A DNA stretch of 64,000 nucleotides from Phreatobacter sp. Its GTDB lineage: Bacteria > Pseudomonadota > Alphaproteobacteria > Rhizobiales > Phreatobacteraceae. Both the position numbers and the translations under genes were made by a program. The notes beneath the pieces were generated by a model, which saw only the letters and a list, made by a program, of their open reading frames with translations, was not told where the DNA came from and did not search any database. Of the stretch, positions 29,552 through 35,162 are shown piece by piece (the stretch's first letter is position 1; each line of letters starts with the position of its first letter). The stretch is from the NCBI RefSeq assembly GCF_030691135.1, contig NZ_JAUYFA010000087.1, positions 1-64,000 on the forward strand, in the 5' to 3' direction.

Positions 29552-29712
29552 GACGGAGCTGCGACGCGCGTCAGGGCACAAATTCCCCGGGGCCTTATCG
29601 ATCTCACGGGAGCTGTCCCTGTCCTCGACCCTGGTCTTGGGTACACGGCGCCCACCTACTTAGGTAGGTTCCCGGGATCGCTTGTCCAACGGCAGAGTGG
29701 CTCCACTTTCTT
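29552..29712 (+). ncRNA. ssrS: 6S RNA (RNA polymerase-binding regulatory RNA)
   Basis: The segment has the conserved alphaproteobacterial 6S words as I remember them: GGGGCCTTATCGATCTC, GGGAGCTGTCCCTG, and CGCCCACCTACTTAGGTAGG followed by TTCCCGGGATC. A closing stem GGAGC (29555) with GCTCC (29700) is followed by a T-rich run typical of RNA 3' ends. CTATCT at 29541-29546 would be the -10 box. The next gene downstream is 5-formyl-THF cyclo-ligase, the classic 6S neighbour. Ends are estimates; the usual zapA gene is not upstream. Confidence 0.75.
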
Positions 29713-29780
29713 TTCTCCGGCGGGTGCTGAGCGGCAGGTCTGACGGCGAACCATTTCGCCCGGACACAGGAAACTACGCC

Positions 29781-29870
29781 CGTCATGCCCGAGCTTGTCC
29801 CGGGCATCCACGAATTCCTCGAAGGGTGGTGGTCAAGTCGTGGATGCCCGGGACAAGCCCGGGCATGACG
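29781..29870. repeat. Family B palindromic repeat, complete copy
   Basis: Two arms of 33 bases are inverted with a single mismatch, from CGTCATGCCCGAGCTTGTCC to its complement ending GGGCATGACG, around a 24-base centre. This CATGCCCGGG-CTTGTCCCGGG type is common in Rhizobiales genomes. Frames across it translate to the familiar false product HARACPGHP/SWMPGTSPGMT. A second, shortened copy is at 56965. Confidence 0.88.
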
Positions 29871-29931
29871 GAAAGCGCGGCGCATTGTCCCGCTACGCGG
29901 TCTCACTCACCATCGTTCGTTTCCTCTCTGG

Positions 29932-30107
29932 CCCCACCCGCACCCTCCCCGCTGCGCGGAGAGGGTGACTTCGACCTCCCGCATCGTCGGCGATGGAAGA
30001 CCAGGCTCGACCGTCCCGGGCACCGGCTGGGCCTGGCTCCATGGCGGGAACAAGGGCGCGACGCCTTAGTCCCCCTCTCCGCGGAGCGGGGAGGGTGCGG
30101 GTGGGGC
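29932..30107. repeat. Family A intergenic palindromic repeat, copy 2
   Basis: The element starts CCCCACCCGCACCCTCCCC and ends in the complement GGGGAGGGTGCGGGTGGGG. Inside are GAGAGGGTGACTTCGACCTC and a core with CCAGGCTCGACCG. It lies between the family B copy and the cyclo-ligase gene, so this gap holds two unrelated palindromic elements side by side behind the 6S RNA. Confidence 0.85.
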
Positions 30108-30169
30108 CTTCCGCCGTCTGTTTCCCGGCCCGGATGACACCTCCGCCGCCCTCGGCTAAATCCTCCCCC

Positions 30170-31587: not shown

Positions 31588-32673
31588 ATGTCGCACAACA
31601 CCTTCGGCCACCTGTTCCGTGTCACCACCTTCGGCGAGAGCCACGGCGTGGCGCTCGGCTGCGTGGTGGACGGCTGCCCGCCGCTGATACCGCTGACATC
31701 AGAGGACATCCAGGCCGACCTCGACCGCCGCCGGCCCGGAACCTCGCGTTTCACCACCCAGCGCCGCGAGGCGGACGCGGTGAAGATCCTCTCCGGCGTG
31801 ATGATCGGCGACGACGGCGTCCAGGTGACGACCGGCACGCCCATCGCGCTGCTGATCGAGAACACCGACCAGCGCTCGAAGGACTATTCCGACATCAAGG
31901 ACAAGTTCCGCCCCGGTCATGCCGACTTCACCTATGAGGCGAAATATGGCATCCGCGACTATCGCGGCGGCGGGCGCTCCTCCGCGCGCGAGACGGCGGC
32001 CCGCGTCGCCGCCGGCGCCATCGCCCGCAAGGTCGTGCCTGGGCTGGTGGTGCGCGGCGCCCTCGTGCAGATGGGCCCGCATGCCATCGACCGCGACAAG
32101 TGGGACTGGGACGTGGTTGGCGCCAACCCCTTCTTCTGCCCGGACGCCGACAAGGCCGCCTTCTACGAGACCTATCTCGACGGCATCCGCAAGTCCGGCT
32201 CCTCCATCGGCGCGGTGCTGGAAGTGGTCGCCGAGGGCGTGCCCGCCGGCCTCGGCGCGCCGATCTACGGCAAACTCGACGCCGAGATCGCCAGCGCCCT
32301 CATGGGCATCAACGCGGTGAAGGGCGTCGAAATCGGCTCGGGCTTCGCCTCCGCGGCGCTGACCGGCGAGGAGAATGCCGACGAGATCCGTATGGGCAAT
32401 GACGGCAAGCCGCTGTTCCTCTCCAACCATGCCGGCGGCATCCTCGGCGGCATTTCGACCGGGCAGGCCGTCGTCGCCCGCTTCGCCGTCAAGCCGACCT
32501 CGTCGATCCTCACGCCGCGCCTGACCATCGACAACAAGGGCGGTGAGACCGACATCCTCACCAAGGGCCGCCACGACCCCTGCGTCGGCATCCGCGCCGT
32601 GCCGGTCGGCGAGGCCATGGTCGCCTGCGTCATCGCCGACCACTATCTGCGGAACCGCGGGCAGAACGGCTAG
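31588..32673 (+). CDS. aroC: Chorismate synthase
   Basis: The enzyme makes chorismate from EPSP with reduced FMN, the last step of the shikimate pathway. The 361 residues begin [20 protein letters not shown], which holds the conserved active-site His. Other signatures are [50 protein letters not shown] and [18 protein letters not shown] leading in-frame TTG 12 codons earlier is not needed. Its need for FMN gives a loose link with the riboflavin gene downstream. Confidence 0.97.
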
Positions 32674-32723
32674 GGCGGGACGCGAGCCTTGAAGGACGCA
32701 CGCCTTACTGTGATTCGTTCAGT

Positions 32724-32743
32724 CTGGCCAAAACGCAGGCCAG
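32724..32743. promoter_or_regulatory. Inverted repeat upstream of ribBX
   Basis: CTGGCC and GGCCAG form a perfect 6-bp inverted repeat with an 8-base spacer, 54 bases before the gene. A half site TTCAGT just upstream (32718-32723) is shared with the palindrome at 32754. Its role is unknown. Confidence 0.35.
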
Positions 32744-32753
32744 CATCGGCAAA

Positions 32754-32772
32754 AATTCAGTTTGACTGAATT
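32754..32772. promoter_or_regulatory. Perfect palindrome, candidate operator of the HTH-ribBX gene
   Basis: AATTCAG and CTGAATT are exact complements around the spacer TTTGA, ending 24 bases before the first start codon of a gene whose product begins with a helix-turn-helix. The AT-rich symmetry stands out in this GC-rich genome. Autoregulation by the gene product is the simplest reading, but is inferred. Confidence 0.55.
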
Positions 32773-32796
32773 GGCCTCGATGTCCATCTTCCGCCC

Positions 32797-34122
32797 ATGA
32801 AGCTCGACATCTGGCTCGCACGTGCCGGCATGACCAGGCTGGCCTTCGCCCGCCAGCTCGGTGTTTCGCCGGCCACCGTCACGGCACTGTGCAATGGCGA
32901 TGCGCCGTGGATGTCGCGCGATACCGCGCAGCGCATCGCTGAACTCACAGCGGGTGCCGTGACCCCAAATGACTTTATCGGCCTTGCCGGGCCGCGTGAT
33001 GAGGAGAGATCCATGCTGCAAGCCGCTGAACGCGTGAAGGCCGCTCTCGACGCCTTCGCCAAGGGGCAGATGGTTGTGGTCACCGACGACGACGACCGCG
33101 AGAACGAGGGCGACCTGATCGTCGCGGCATCCCTCTGCACGCCGGAGCAGATGGCCTTCATCGTCCGCCACACGTCCGGCATCGTCTGCACGCCGCTGAC
33201 CCTGCAGGAGGCGCAGCGCCTGCGTCTCGATCCCATGGTCTCGTCCAACGATTCACCCCACGGCACGGCCTTCACCGTCTCCGTCGACTATCGCCACGGC
33301 ACGACGACCGGCATTTCCGCCGACGACCGCACGGCCACGGTCCGGGCGCTGGCCAATCCCAATGTCGGGGCCGTCGATTTCGTCCGCCCGGGCCACATCT
33401 TCCCGCTCATCGCCAGGGAGGGCGGCGTGCTCATGCGCTCCGGCCATACCGAAGCGGCGGTGGATCTCTGCAAGCTCGCCGGGTTGCCGCCGATCGGCGT
33501 CATCTGCGAACTCGTCAATGACGACGGCACGGTCACCCGCGGGCCGCAGGTGACCGCCTTCGCCGAGAAGCACGGTCTTCTGATGGTCTCGGTCGCCGAT
33601 CTGATCAAGTACCGCCAGGCCCGCGACAAGCTGGTGGAGCGCGCCGGCGAATTCCCGATCGAGACGCCCTACGGGCCCGCCCGGGGCATCGCCTACCGCA
33701 CGCCCTATGACCGGGTCGAGCATCTCGCCGTCGTCTTCGGCGAGGTCGACGAGGCCGGCGCGACGCTCGTCCGCCTCCACCGCGAGACGGTGCTGCGCGA
33801 CGTCTTCGGCAAGAACCGCTCCTGCGATGCGGCGATGAAGATTCTGGCGCAGAAGGGCGGGGTGCTGGTCTATCTGCGCGACGGCACGGCCGGCGTTCCT
33901 GCCCAGTCGCTGGCGGCGACCGCCCCCGCTACCGACATCCACGAGAGCCACGGCTCGGCGAAGATGCGTGACGACCAGTGGCGCGAGATCGGCCTCGGCG
34001 CCCAGATCCTCCGGGATCTCGGCGCCAACCGCATCCGGCTGCTGGCCTCCAAGACCCGCCACTACGTCGGGCTCGGCGGCTTCGGCATCGAGATCGTCTC
34101 GACCGAGATGCTGGACGGTTAG
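32797..34122 (+). CDS. ribB: HTH-RibB-RibX fusion: 3,4-dihydroxy-2-butanone-4-phosphate synthase with N-terminal HTH
   Basis: RibB makes the four-carbon unit of riboflavin from ribulose 5-phosphate. The 441-residue frame has three parts. Residues 1-72 resemble an XRE/Cro helix-turn-helix (LAFARQLGVSPATVTALCNG, then SRDTAQRIAEL). Residues 73-275 are a complete RibB with the acidic loop DDDDRENEGDL (97-107) and SGHTEAAVDL (215-224). Residues 285-441 resemble GTP cyclohydrolase II but lack its zinc cysteines (HRET at 328-331 and SCDAA at 342-346), as in known RibBX proteins. A strong ribosome site inside the frame could start a shorter RibBX at 33013. Confidence 0.9.
   Translation: MKLDIWLARAGMTRLAFARQLGVSPATVTALCNGDAPWMSRDTAQRIAELTAGAVTPNDFIGLAGPRDEERSMLQAAERVKAALDAFAKGQMVVVTDDDDRENEGDLIVAASLCTPEQMAFIVRHTSGIVCTPLTLQEAQRLRLDPMVSSNDSPHGTAFTVSVDYRHGTTTGISADDRTATVRALANPNVGAVDFVRPGHIFPLIAREGGVLMRSGHTEAAVDLCKLAGLPPIGVICELVNDDGTVTRGPQVTAFAEKHGLLMVSVADLIKYRQARDKLVERAGEFPIETPYGPARGIAYRTPYDRVEHLAVVFGEVDEAGATLVRLHRETVLRDVFGKNRSCDAAMKILAQKGGVLVYLRDGTAGVPAQSLAATAPATDIHESHGSAKMRDDQWREIGLGAQILRDLGANRIRLLASKTRHYVGLGGFGIEIVSTEMLDG
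33001..33006 (+). promoter_or_regulatory. Strong internal ribosome site before codon 73 of ribBX
   Basis: GAGGAG lies six bases before the in-frame ATG at 33013, where the catalytic RibB domain begins. The upstream ATG at 32797 has no clear ribosome site. This decides between one long product, one short product, or both. Confidence 0.6.
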
Positions 34123-34171
34123 GCGGCTGGCAGCGCGCCGCTCTTGCGGGCCTGCGGCCTGCAAGGGCATT

Positions 34172-34341
34172 CCCCACCCGCACCCGCACCCGCACCCGTA
34201 CCCTCCCCTCGCTCACGCGAGGAGAGGGGACTTCGGCCTCCCGTTTCACCTTGACGGGTTGAGCCAGGCTCGACGGCCGACATGAGGCGCGACGTCATAG
34301 TCCCCTCTCCTCGCGTGAGCGAGGGGAGGGTGCGGGTGGGG
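34172..34341. repeat. Family A intergenic palindromic repeat, copy 3
   Basis: The element runs from CCCCACCCGCACCCGCACCC to GGGGAGGGTGCGGGTGGGG, with inner stems CTCACGCGAGGAGAGGGGAC and GTCCCCTCTCCTCGCGTGAG and the core GAGCCAGGCTCGACGGCC. The left end carries extra CACCCG units. It lies between convergent genes and would fold into a long hairpin in transcripts from either side. Confidence 0.87.
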
Positions 34342-34388
34342 CTCTTTAGGTCTTTCCGGCAGAATGATGTGGGCGATCCACGTCGCCC

Positions 34389-35162
34389 CTACTTCCGCGT
34401 CATGAAGGCCGTGAAGGCCTGCCTGGCCTCGTCGCCCTTGAGGAGTTCGGCGAACAGCGCGCCTTCCTCGTCCATCCTGGCGCGCACCTCGTCCGCCCCC
34501 TTGCGCATGAGACGGCGCGTATGGGCGAGGGCGATCGGCGGCTTGGAGGCCAGCTTCGTCGCAACCGCGAGGGCCTTCGCCTCGATCTCCGCCGACGGCA
34601 CCACGGCATTGACGAGGCCCATGGCCTCGGCCTCGTGCGCCCCGAAGGGCTCGGCCAGCATGAGATATTCGGTTGCCTTCTTGAGGCCCGCGAGGCGCGG
34701 CAGCAGCAGTGAGGAGGCCGCTTCCGGCACGAGGCCGAGATCGACGAAAGGCATGCGGAACATCGCTGCCGGGCTGGCATAGGCAAGGTCCATGTGCAGC
34801 ACCATGGTGGTGCCGATGCCGATGGCGAGACCGTCCACCGCGGCGATCATCGGCACTTCGACGGTGGCCAGCGCCTTGATGAAATCCCCCGCCGGCGATC
34901 CGGCGGAAGCCCCTCCCGCCGAGCGCTGCATGAAGTCGGCGATGTCGTTGCCGGAGGTGAAGACGCCGGGGCCGCCGGCGAAGACGACGGCGCGCGTGCC
35001 CTCGGCCGCCGCATTCTCGATGACGCCCCGCATCGTGTCGTACATGGCGCCGGTCAGTGCGTTTTTCTTGTCGAACCGGTTCATGCGCACCAGCACCACG
35101 CCCGTGTCGTGACGGGTGATCGTCACATGGTCGGTGTCGGCCTGCGGGGTGATGCCGTCCAT
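34389..35162 (-). CDS. Enoyl-CoA hydratase/isomerase family protein
   Basis: This is a 257-residue crotonase-fold enzyme of CoA-ester breakdown. Family marks are VVLVRMNRFDKKNALT near the N-terminus, AVVFAGGPGVFTSGNDIADF (first oxyanion-hole segment), MIAAVDGLAIGIGTTM (second) and FVDLGLVPEAASS, where the Glu lies at the catalytic region. The exact substrate is not readable. The ATG has GAGGA seven bases upstream. It follows the acyl-CoA dehydrogenase gene after 10 bases, so the two act in one beta-oxidation-like path. Confidence 0.9.
   Translation of the reverse strand: MDGITPQADTDHVTITRHDTGVVLVRMNRFDKKNALTGAMYDTMRGVIENAAAEGTRAVVFAGGPGVFTSGNDIADFMQRSAGGASAGSPAGDFIKALATVEVPMIAAVDGLAIGIGTTMVLHMDLAYASPAAMFRMPFVDLGLVPEAASSLLLPRLAGLKKATEYLMLAEPFGAHEAEAMGLVNAVVPSAEIEAKALAVATKLASKPPIALAHTRRLMRKGADEVRARMDEEGALFAELLKGDEARQAFTAFMTRK

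Follow-up and report, generated by a model that had tools for sequence, protein, structure and literature searches.

We analysed a window of 64,000 nucleotides, the whole stretch of DNA under study, from the Phreatobacter sp. assembly GCF_030691135.1 (contig NZ_JAUYFA010000087.1, positions 1 to 64,000 of the forward strand). Positions 32797..34122 of its plus strand form one uninterrupted open reading frame (ORF) for a 441-residue protein, here called HTH-RibBX, in which a Cro/XRE-like helix-turn-helix (HTH) domain precedes the riboflavin enzyme RibB (3,4-dihydroxy-2-butanone 4-phosphate, or DHBP, synthase) and RibX, a degenerate GTP cyclohydrolase II domain. From the sequence evidence set out below, HTH-RibBX is probably a riboflavin enzyme that regulates its own gene and is produced both with the HTH and without it. 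A sequence-only reading of this DNA had described a single frame joining an HTH, a full RibB with its acidic loop and a RibX, and this was confirmed by the 441 open codons and by the Pfam and NCBIfam scores. Pfam placed HTH_26 at residues 2-49 (24.9 bits, cut-off 22), DHBP_synthase (PF00926) at residues 82-272 (33040..33612, plus strand; 285.3 bits), where DDDDRENEGD and RSGHTEA are found, and GTP_cyclohydro2 (PF00925) at residues 282-435 (33640..34101, plus strand; 108.5 bits, above the cut-off of this broad family). The NCBIfam model for ribB, TIGR00506, was passed (249.7 bits, cut-off 177.45), and that for ribA, TIGR00505, scored far below its cut-off (40.4 bits versus 205.85). Pfam found no CTP-dependent riboflavin kinase domain of the RbkR type, the only domains beside the HTH being RibB and GTP_cyclohydro2. 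An AlphaFold2 model of the full protein, built with 54 sequences, reached a mean predicted local distance difference test (pLDDT) score of 81 and displayed a four-helix HTH, a linker and two enzyme domains.

The HTH domain proper comprises residues 1-61 (32797..32979, plus strand), as indicated by Pfam, by AlphaFold2 and by a profile match to YdaS/Cro structures. Its modelled helices span residues 3-9, 14-21, 25-33 and 41-50, the third being the recognition helix (32869-32895, plus strand), and the domain modelled alone had a pLDDT of 84. In the profile search, the best solved structures were the YdaS/Cro prophage proteins 8co2 and 8c7k (E 5e-4 and 8e-4), while HTH_3, HTH_31 and the YdaS family (Pfam YdaS_toxin, 14.4 bits versus a cut-off of 30) stayed under their thresholds and a fold search returned XRE-type folds with no match at E <= 0.001. 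The HTH had initially been drawn to residue 72; the domain itself was upheld, but conservation stops near residue 61 and gives way to a linker of poorly conserved sequence (residues 62-72, 32980..33012, plus strand; pLDDT below 50 at residues 62-66), the poor conservation extending over residues 62-76, within which lies a second possible translation start. Across 55 same-genus pairs, the median ratio of nonsynonymous to synonymous substitutions (dN/dS) was 0.15 for residues 1-61, at a median dS of about 0.5. Because of this ratio and because the fusion recurs across the order, the HTH part is not there by chance, and a chance ORF or an annotation slip could be ruled out. A stop codon between the HTH and RibB parts of relatives, named beforehand as an observation that would speak against the fusion, was absent from all 138 fused loci examined; their matches start at residue 1, and of the 148 loci with such a match not one had been discarded because of a stop.

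In the RibB part, D97, D98, D100, R101, E102 and E104, together with G216, H217, T218, E219 and A220, were invariant in all 54 aligned sequences, and we take these residues to be catalytic; HTH-RibBX is also the only RibB found in its genome. GTP cyclohydrolase II binds zinc through cysteines. We inspected aligned columns 326-347 in 63 representatives, obtained by clustering the 138 loci (129 distinct coding sequences) at 90% identity; the set excludes 10 full-length-hit loci that repeat the same places, locus L017 and any locus matched only from a later residue than the first. At these columns, cysteine occurred once at column 343, in the window's protein, and four times at column 345; the three zinc cysteines are thus not conserved, which bears out the RibX-type domain of the sequence-only reading and, together with the TIGR00505 score, led us to reject RibX as an active GTP cyclohydrolase II. 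A separate RibA elsewhere in the genome carries the C..CxC cysteine pattern. A third, weaker GTP_cyclohydro2 match (52.6 bits) lies in a 447-residue frame of the same genome (L033, G000:C63:21120-21527). By sequence, PDB 6mnz is a solved two-domain relative of the RibB and RibX part.

Upstream of the gene, positions 32754..32772 hold a perfect 8-3-8 inverted repeat, AATTCAGTTTGACTGAATT, which is conserved upstream of relatives and which we regard as a predicted operator. It covers the predicted -35 box, and its 12-base core, TTCAGTNNNACTGAA, is a single site in the 4.2-Mb genome at up to one mismatch. Palindromes of the TTTCAGTNNNACTGAAA type, or with one base changed per arm, lie upstream of most fused loci. 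Within the last 85 nt, a perfect 7-3-7 palindrome was present in 30/63 representatives versus 0.8% of Markov-resampled sequences, and at least 6 of 7 paired positions in 56/63 versus 12%. The exact TTTCAGTNNNACTGAAA, for which base composition predicts 0.001-0.004 sites per 5 Mb, occurred 21 times in 40 fused genomes: 17 times at HTH-ribBX, three times at riboswitch-ribN loci and once elsewhere, inside an ORF in a region that looked phage-like by eye. Ten of these genomes belong to the genus and held 8 sites in 8 genomes, every one at HTH-ribBX, those without it being the window's genome (two bases different) and G002 (one base different); the 30 further ones (taken from the fused genomes, 62 of which are known) held 13 sites in 11 genomes, 9 at HTH-ribBX, 3 at the transporter and the one elsewhere. 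No exact site was found in 20 unfused genomes (5 + 15).

The variable base of the operator follows the recognition helix, in that residue 30 tracks the third base of the half-site. When this residue is A, G or S, C stands on both arms (TTCAG) in 43/43 representatives; when it is Q, H or L, this is so in only 2/20, TTTAG being the commonest half-site (8/20), with the 20 including 4 representatives without a good site of the main type and one (L016) with a spurious best site. The covariation between residue and base gave a Fisher value of 7e-14, uncorrected for kinship. Family f22, whose helix reads TQGRVSQ, has a palindrome of its own, TATTAGCNNNGCTAATA, which was exact in 5/7 genomes, always directly before HTH-ribBX, and in 0/9 other genomes (4 shown unfused, 2 below the matches listed and 3 without a hit). 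In G039, where a different XRE HTH is fused, a perfect palindrome, GTTGCCAAAATGGCAAC, covers the same -35 position (one genome, by eye). By sequence, the case for a specific DNA target of the fused HTH is strong. The sequence-only reading had envisaged a trigger enzyme that senses its own pathway and controls transcription. It was supported in part: control of transcription is well backed by sequence, through the own-promoter palindrome, single in the genome, the covariation of helix and base, and the same operator standing in five relatives at ribN-like genes under FMN riboswitch control. That reading had missed the operator, the promoter for a leaderless mRNA and the conserved start inside the gene.

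A free-standing relative of the HTH, 91 residues long, is encoded in G055 (L165, G055:C4, about 477132-477311), with tandem TTTCAG-type palindromes of similar half-sites in front. The RibBX of that genome is unfused, and L165 is a possible source type of the fused HTH.

Positional counts in the 63 representatives, aligned at the HTH start codon, pointed to a promoter, with TTG at -35, -34 and -33 (T 56, T 50 and G 44 of 63), T 44 at -12, A 52 at -11 and T 37 at -7 in the -10 region, and C 55 at -1. In the window, the predicted elements are TTGACT (32762..32767, plus strand), inside the operator, and CATCTT (32785..32790, plus strand), with the transcription start predicted at or beside the ATG. 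Because the promoter elements end at the HTH start codon, this layout predicts a leaderless mRNA beginning there, and a Shine-Dalgarno sequence of -6 kcal/mol or lower was found at the HTH start in only 1/63. In the excerpted part of PMC5756330, leaderless genes amount to roughly 6% in Sinorhizobium meliloti.

The linker contains the signals of a further start. An internal Shine-Dalgarno sequence, GAGGAGAGA (33001..33009, plus strand; codons 69-71; duplex energy -7.2), precedes an internal ATG from which a second product, RibBX without the HTH, is predicted (33013..34122, plus strand). A start codon is present in the linker of 62/63 representatives versus 56% of windows of this size taken from other parts of the genes; a Shine-Dalgarno sequence of -6 kcal/mol or lower is present in 45/63 versus 8.7% of control windows. 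Among 425 arginine codons of the 12 same-genus copies, 11 are AGA, all of them at codon 71 within GAGGAGAGA, while the twelfth copy differs. The AGA codons and the enrichment of start codon and Shine-Dalgarno sequence suggest selection at the nucleotide level and so point to a second, HTH-less RibBX product; column-by-column codon statistics were uninformative in the linker, which does not align. As for translation from 33013 only, which had been named as an observation that would overturn the fusion, 33013 looks like the start of a second product and not of the sole one.

The sequence-only reading had called for a search for the same fusion in Hyphomicrobiales, and the fusion was found in at least 57/297 sampled genomes of the order, in eight family groups; G039 adds one genome, with its different XRE HTH fused at the same place of RibBX. 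This count of 57 (plus one with the other HTH) is a lower bound, and the frequency is taken from the 297-genome survey only, as the search for relatives included HTH peptides among its patterns and kept the best 80 loci, and is hence unfit for this purpose. All 11 other genus genomes carry the fusion, the copy of G009 being split by a contig end. Among the best 80 loci, the named carriers included Xanthobacter, Ancylobacter, Microvirga, Methylobacterium, Bosea, Labrys, Stappia, Roseibium, Methylocella and Rhodoblastus, and the closest named relatives, at 90-96% identity, were metagenome-assembled genomes, one of them named Phreatobacter. In a survey of 289 genomes from across the class, the matches listed outside the order contained the fusion only in G337 and G524, which belong to one genus. 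These two fusions (L181 and L182) are accompanied by a second RibB-type gene elsewhere in the genome and may be transferred; the palindrome of L181 reads TTTTAAGTTTGACTTAAAA.

On a tree of the RibBX part, with L017 labelled unfused, the fused genes do not form one clade and require 8 changes, no fewer than 5 of which are forced, so that, on this tree, gains, losses or transfer of the fusion have occurred. In 17/20 unfused loci, no more than about 190 bp separate the end of the chorismate synthase gene from the aligned start of ribBX, and inspection by eye of the three forward frames in 12 unfused loci (L018, L019 and L021-L030) showed no HTH; on these two grounds we rejected the idea that the HTH is a separate upstream gene in unfused relatives. 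In 29/63 fused representatives, chorismate synthase is found no further than 600 bp upstream, and its end in the alignment lies 72-474 bp before the HTH start. L017 (G039:C15:12527-13882) is apparently a separate fusion of a different XRE HTH to RibBX, and G081, the sole other examined genome of the family of G039, had no match over the HTH part.

The textbook mechanism by which bacteria control their riboflavin genes is the FMN (flavin mononucleotide) riboswitch. With stricter filters, none was found in the window's genome or in 10/11 other genus genomes searched. As a candidate element before HTH-ribBX an FMN riboswitch was likewise rejected, since the six matches in 32000-35000 belong to other families, all under their gathering scores, and none was found genome-wide. 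In a survey of 40 of the 62 known fused genomes, 9 had an FMN riboswitch. The three extra exact TTTCAGTNNNACTGAAA sites, in G118, G277 and G302, start about 70 bp before such a riboswitch (RF00050, 111-114 bits), which precedes an EamA transporter gene that we call RibN-like from its family and its riboswitch. The part of PMC4418817 available to us describes ribN genes of alphaproteobacteria as carrying an FMN riboswitch. All five riboswitch loci of the RibN type in fused genomes (5/5) had the operator (at least 13/14 bases) within 90 bp of the riboswitch, counting L209, whose site straddles the riboswitch boundary and scores 8 when cut there, as 13/14 when whole. No operator was found at the other riboswitch loci of fused genomes (0/4), where the first ORF is RibH-like (lumazine-synthase-like; by Pfam in one, by eye in the rest), or at those of other genomes (0/17, best 10/14), and 2,700 resampled sequences reached at most 11/14. 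The 17 were drawn from 19 riboswitch loci outside fused genomes, excluding one that was not fetched and one with scant upstream DNA, and include L198, below the family cut-off, and two genomes, G050 and G020, with no or a fragmentary RibB match. The five operator-riboswitch genomes come from three genera of a single family group, f41 (placed with Stappia by the tree), and are not independent; in two of them, G252 and G265, the ribN operator near the riboswitch lies at the likely -10/start region. By fusion status, FMN riboswitches were counted by hand in 2/18 fused versus 15/43 other genomes, a comparison confounded by kinship.

From these observations we infer DNA binding, a second product and an effector for HTH-RibBX. 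RibB is a dimer, and for this reason two HTH domains would be presented jointly and could bind the palindrome over the -35 of their own promoter, which would be shut off as a result. Since the -35 lies under the operator in the window's genus, repression there appears considerably likelier than activation, although not beyond doubt. A ligand tuning the binding would most likely be bound by RibX, which is devoid of its zinc site. Transcripts from the own promoter would have the HTH start codon at their 5' end and, as leaderless mRNAs, would give the full-length regulator-enzyme, while the ribosome-binding site in the linker, whose start is backed by conservation, would yield an HTH-less RibBX that supplies enzyme; mixed dimers with this shorter form may weaken binding to the two-armed operator. 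In relatives of Stappia and Roseibium, the same operator would also act at the promoter of the RibN-like transporter with its FMN riboswitch. More tentatively, and at somewhat less than an even chance, we propose that the leaderless mRNA favours the HTH form and the internal site the HTH-less form, so that the ratio of mixed dimers sets operator occupancy, that RibBX gained an HTH more than once, the HTHs being of different types and each matched by a palindrome of its own within a common promoter frame, and that in relatives of Stappia and Roseibium this control is layered onto that of the transporter gene by the FMN riboswitch.

That HTH-RibBX is instead an activator, binding upstream of RNA polymerase and recruiting it when flavin is short, is unlikely. 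In loci of Roseibium, Ancylobacter, Bosea and Labrys, the centre of the best operator falls near -60 relative to the predicted start, and the ribN operator of G118 and G277 stands 17 nt before a TTG, as it does at Roseibium ribBX (L066 and L080; by eye). However, in the window's genus and in Microvirga the -35 lies under the operator, which in family f22 reaches the -10, and at the likely -10/start region of the ribN genes in G252 and G265 its occupation should block transcription.

Slightly less probable still is a single full-length product, with the linker Shine-Dalgarno sequence either left over from the unfused gene, which must have had a start here, or a by-product of lysine-glutamate or arginine codons, the linker often encoding KE or EER and thus reading AAGGAG or GAGGAGAG. 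A single product fits poorly with the excess over control windows judged at the same threshold (45/63 versus 8.7%), and with the rare AGA, which is found at codon 71 in 11 of the 12 genus copies and nowhere else in them despite their synonymous divergence (median dS about 0.5).

We consider it improbable that the operator belongs to another repressor acting in trans, the fused HTH being structural or a relic. Such regulators do occur in the order, as illustrated by L165 in G055 with its similar palindromes, but the operator and the fused HTH covary, exact sites hardly occur away from the fused gene and are missing from the 20 unfused genomes searched, the fusion of G039 has a different palindrome of its own, and residues 1-61 are under purifying selection. 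Finally, that translation yields RibBX from 33013 alone, with the HTH part of the frame left unexpressed, is hardly credible, for although the HTH start has no Shine-Dalgarno sequence in all representatives but one, its codons show a dN/dS of 0.15, the promoter elements end at its start codon and an in-frame stop occurred in 0/138 fused loci.

Several observations nevertheless weigh against an autoregulatory enzyme made in two forms. At HTH-ribBX, 21/30 further fused genomes have variants only and not the exact TTTCAGTNNNACTGAAA; the centre of the best operator falls, in many lineages, near -60, from where activators and cooperative repressors alike can act; and the window's own genome has no second target at up to one mismatch, a wider regulon being seen in one other family group only. 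Exceptions to the specificity rule are L077 and L155, which combine Q with a C operator, and L152, L016 and the TQGR helix type fall outside the main operator pattern. The internal start is missing in L158, L077 has no Shine-Dalgarno sequence there, and in 18/63 representatives the linker Shine-Dalgarno sequence falls short of -6. In addition, the relatives behind the operator and start statistics are not independent.

Turning to the neighbouring sequence, the chorismate synthase gene aroC (31588..32673, plus strand; Pfam PF01264) lies directly 5' of HTH-RibBX and is context outside the system. On the 3' side, an exact 30-base inverted repeat (34202-34231 on the plus strand, 34300-34329 on the minus strand) precedes an opposite-strand ORF that is enoyl-CoA hydratase-like by eye; weak matches to miRNA families overlap the repeat, which is possibly a dispersed palindromic element or a terminator. 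The ORF at 29682-30137 reads KSWMPGTSPGMTE and resembles a translated dispersed repeat of the order.

Among open-licence PMC papers, we found no literature on a fusion of an HTH with RibB, on the operator of such a gene or on its pair of starts; enzyme-regulator fusions are already known, and it appears that a vitamin B2 control circuit of the HTH-RibBX kind is without a published description found by us. If our interpretation is true, a dedicated regulator with a defined operator and a residue-base rule would help to fill the riboswitch gap for part of the order, with carriers including Xanthobacter, Methylobacterium, Bosea, Roseibium and Microvirga and with a second target, ribN, in some relatives. 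It would also offer a natural case in which one gene gives rise to regulatory and non-regulatory enzyme forms via leaderless and internal initiation.

Among the closest known systems is RibBX itself, reportedly described by Brutinel, Dean and Gralnick in 2013 as a proteobacterial variant of RibB with a RibA-like domain, and to our knowledge devoid of an HTH. The C-terminal 365 residues of HTH-RibBX correspond to it, being a complete RibB and a RibX without the zinc cysteines, whereas the Cro-like HTH, the predicted operator and the second start are additions. YdaS/Cro-like prophage regulators resemble the HTH by profile, the Pfam YdaS_toxin matches being below cut-off, but they are separate phage proteins, while the HTH described here is fused to an enzyme. 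A bifunctional regulator-enzyme is reportedly also found in RbkR, for which Rodionova et al. 2017 is the source cited. The portion of PMC8305020 at hand presents RbkR as a riboflavin kinase of archaea that depends on CTP, bears an HTH at its N-terminus and is "bifunctional as gene regulator and enzyme"; on this partial description, it shares with HTH-RibBX an N-terminal HTH on a riboflavin-pathway enzyme, an analogy and not a membership, and differs in being a kinase and archaeal, whereas HTH-RibBX is a RibB and bacterial. As far as the excerpt of PMC3518464 goes, Wolbachia wBmxR1 and wBmxR2 bind the ribA promoter, activate in a lacZ test and are reported not to bind their own promoters; they are thus likewise transcription factors at a riboflavin gene promoter of an alphaproteobacterium, but are separate, activating proteins without own-promoter binding. 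Finally, the FMN riboswitch also controls riboflavin genes, including ribN, in alphaproteobacteria, according to the same part of PMC4418817, but is RNA-based, and in five relatives it is combined with an operator of the HTH-RibBX type.
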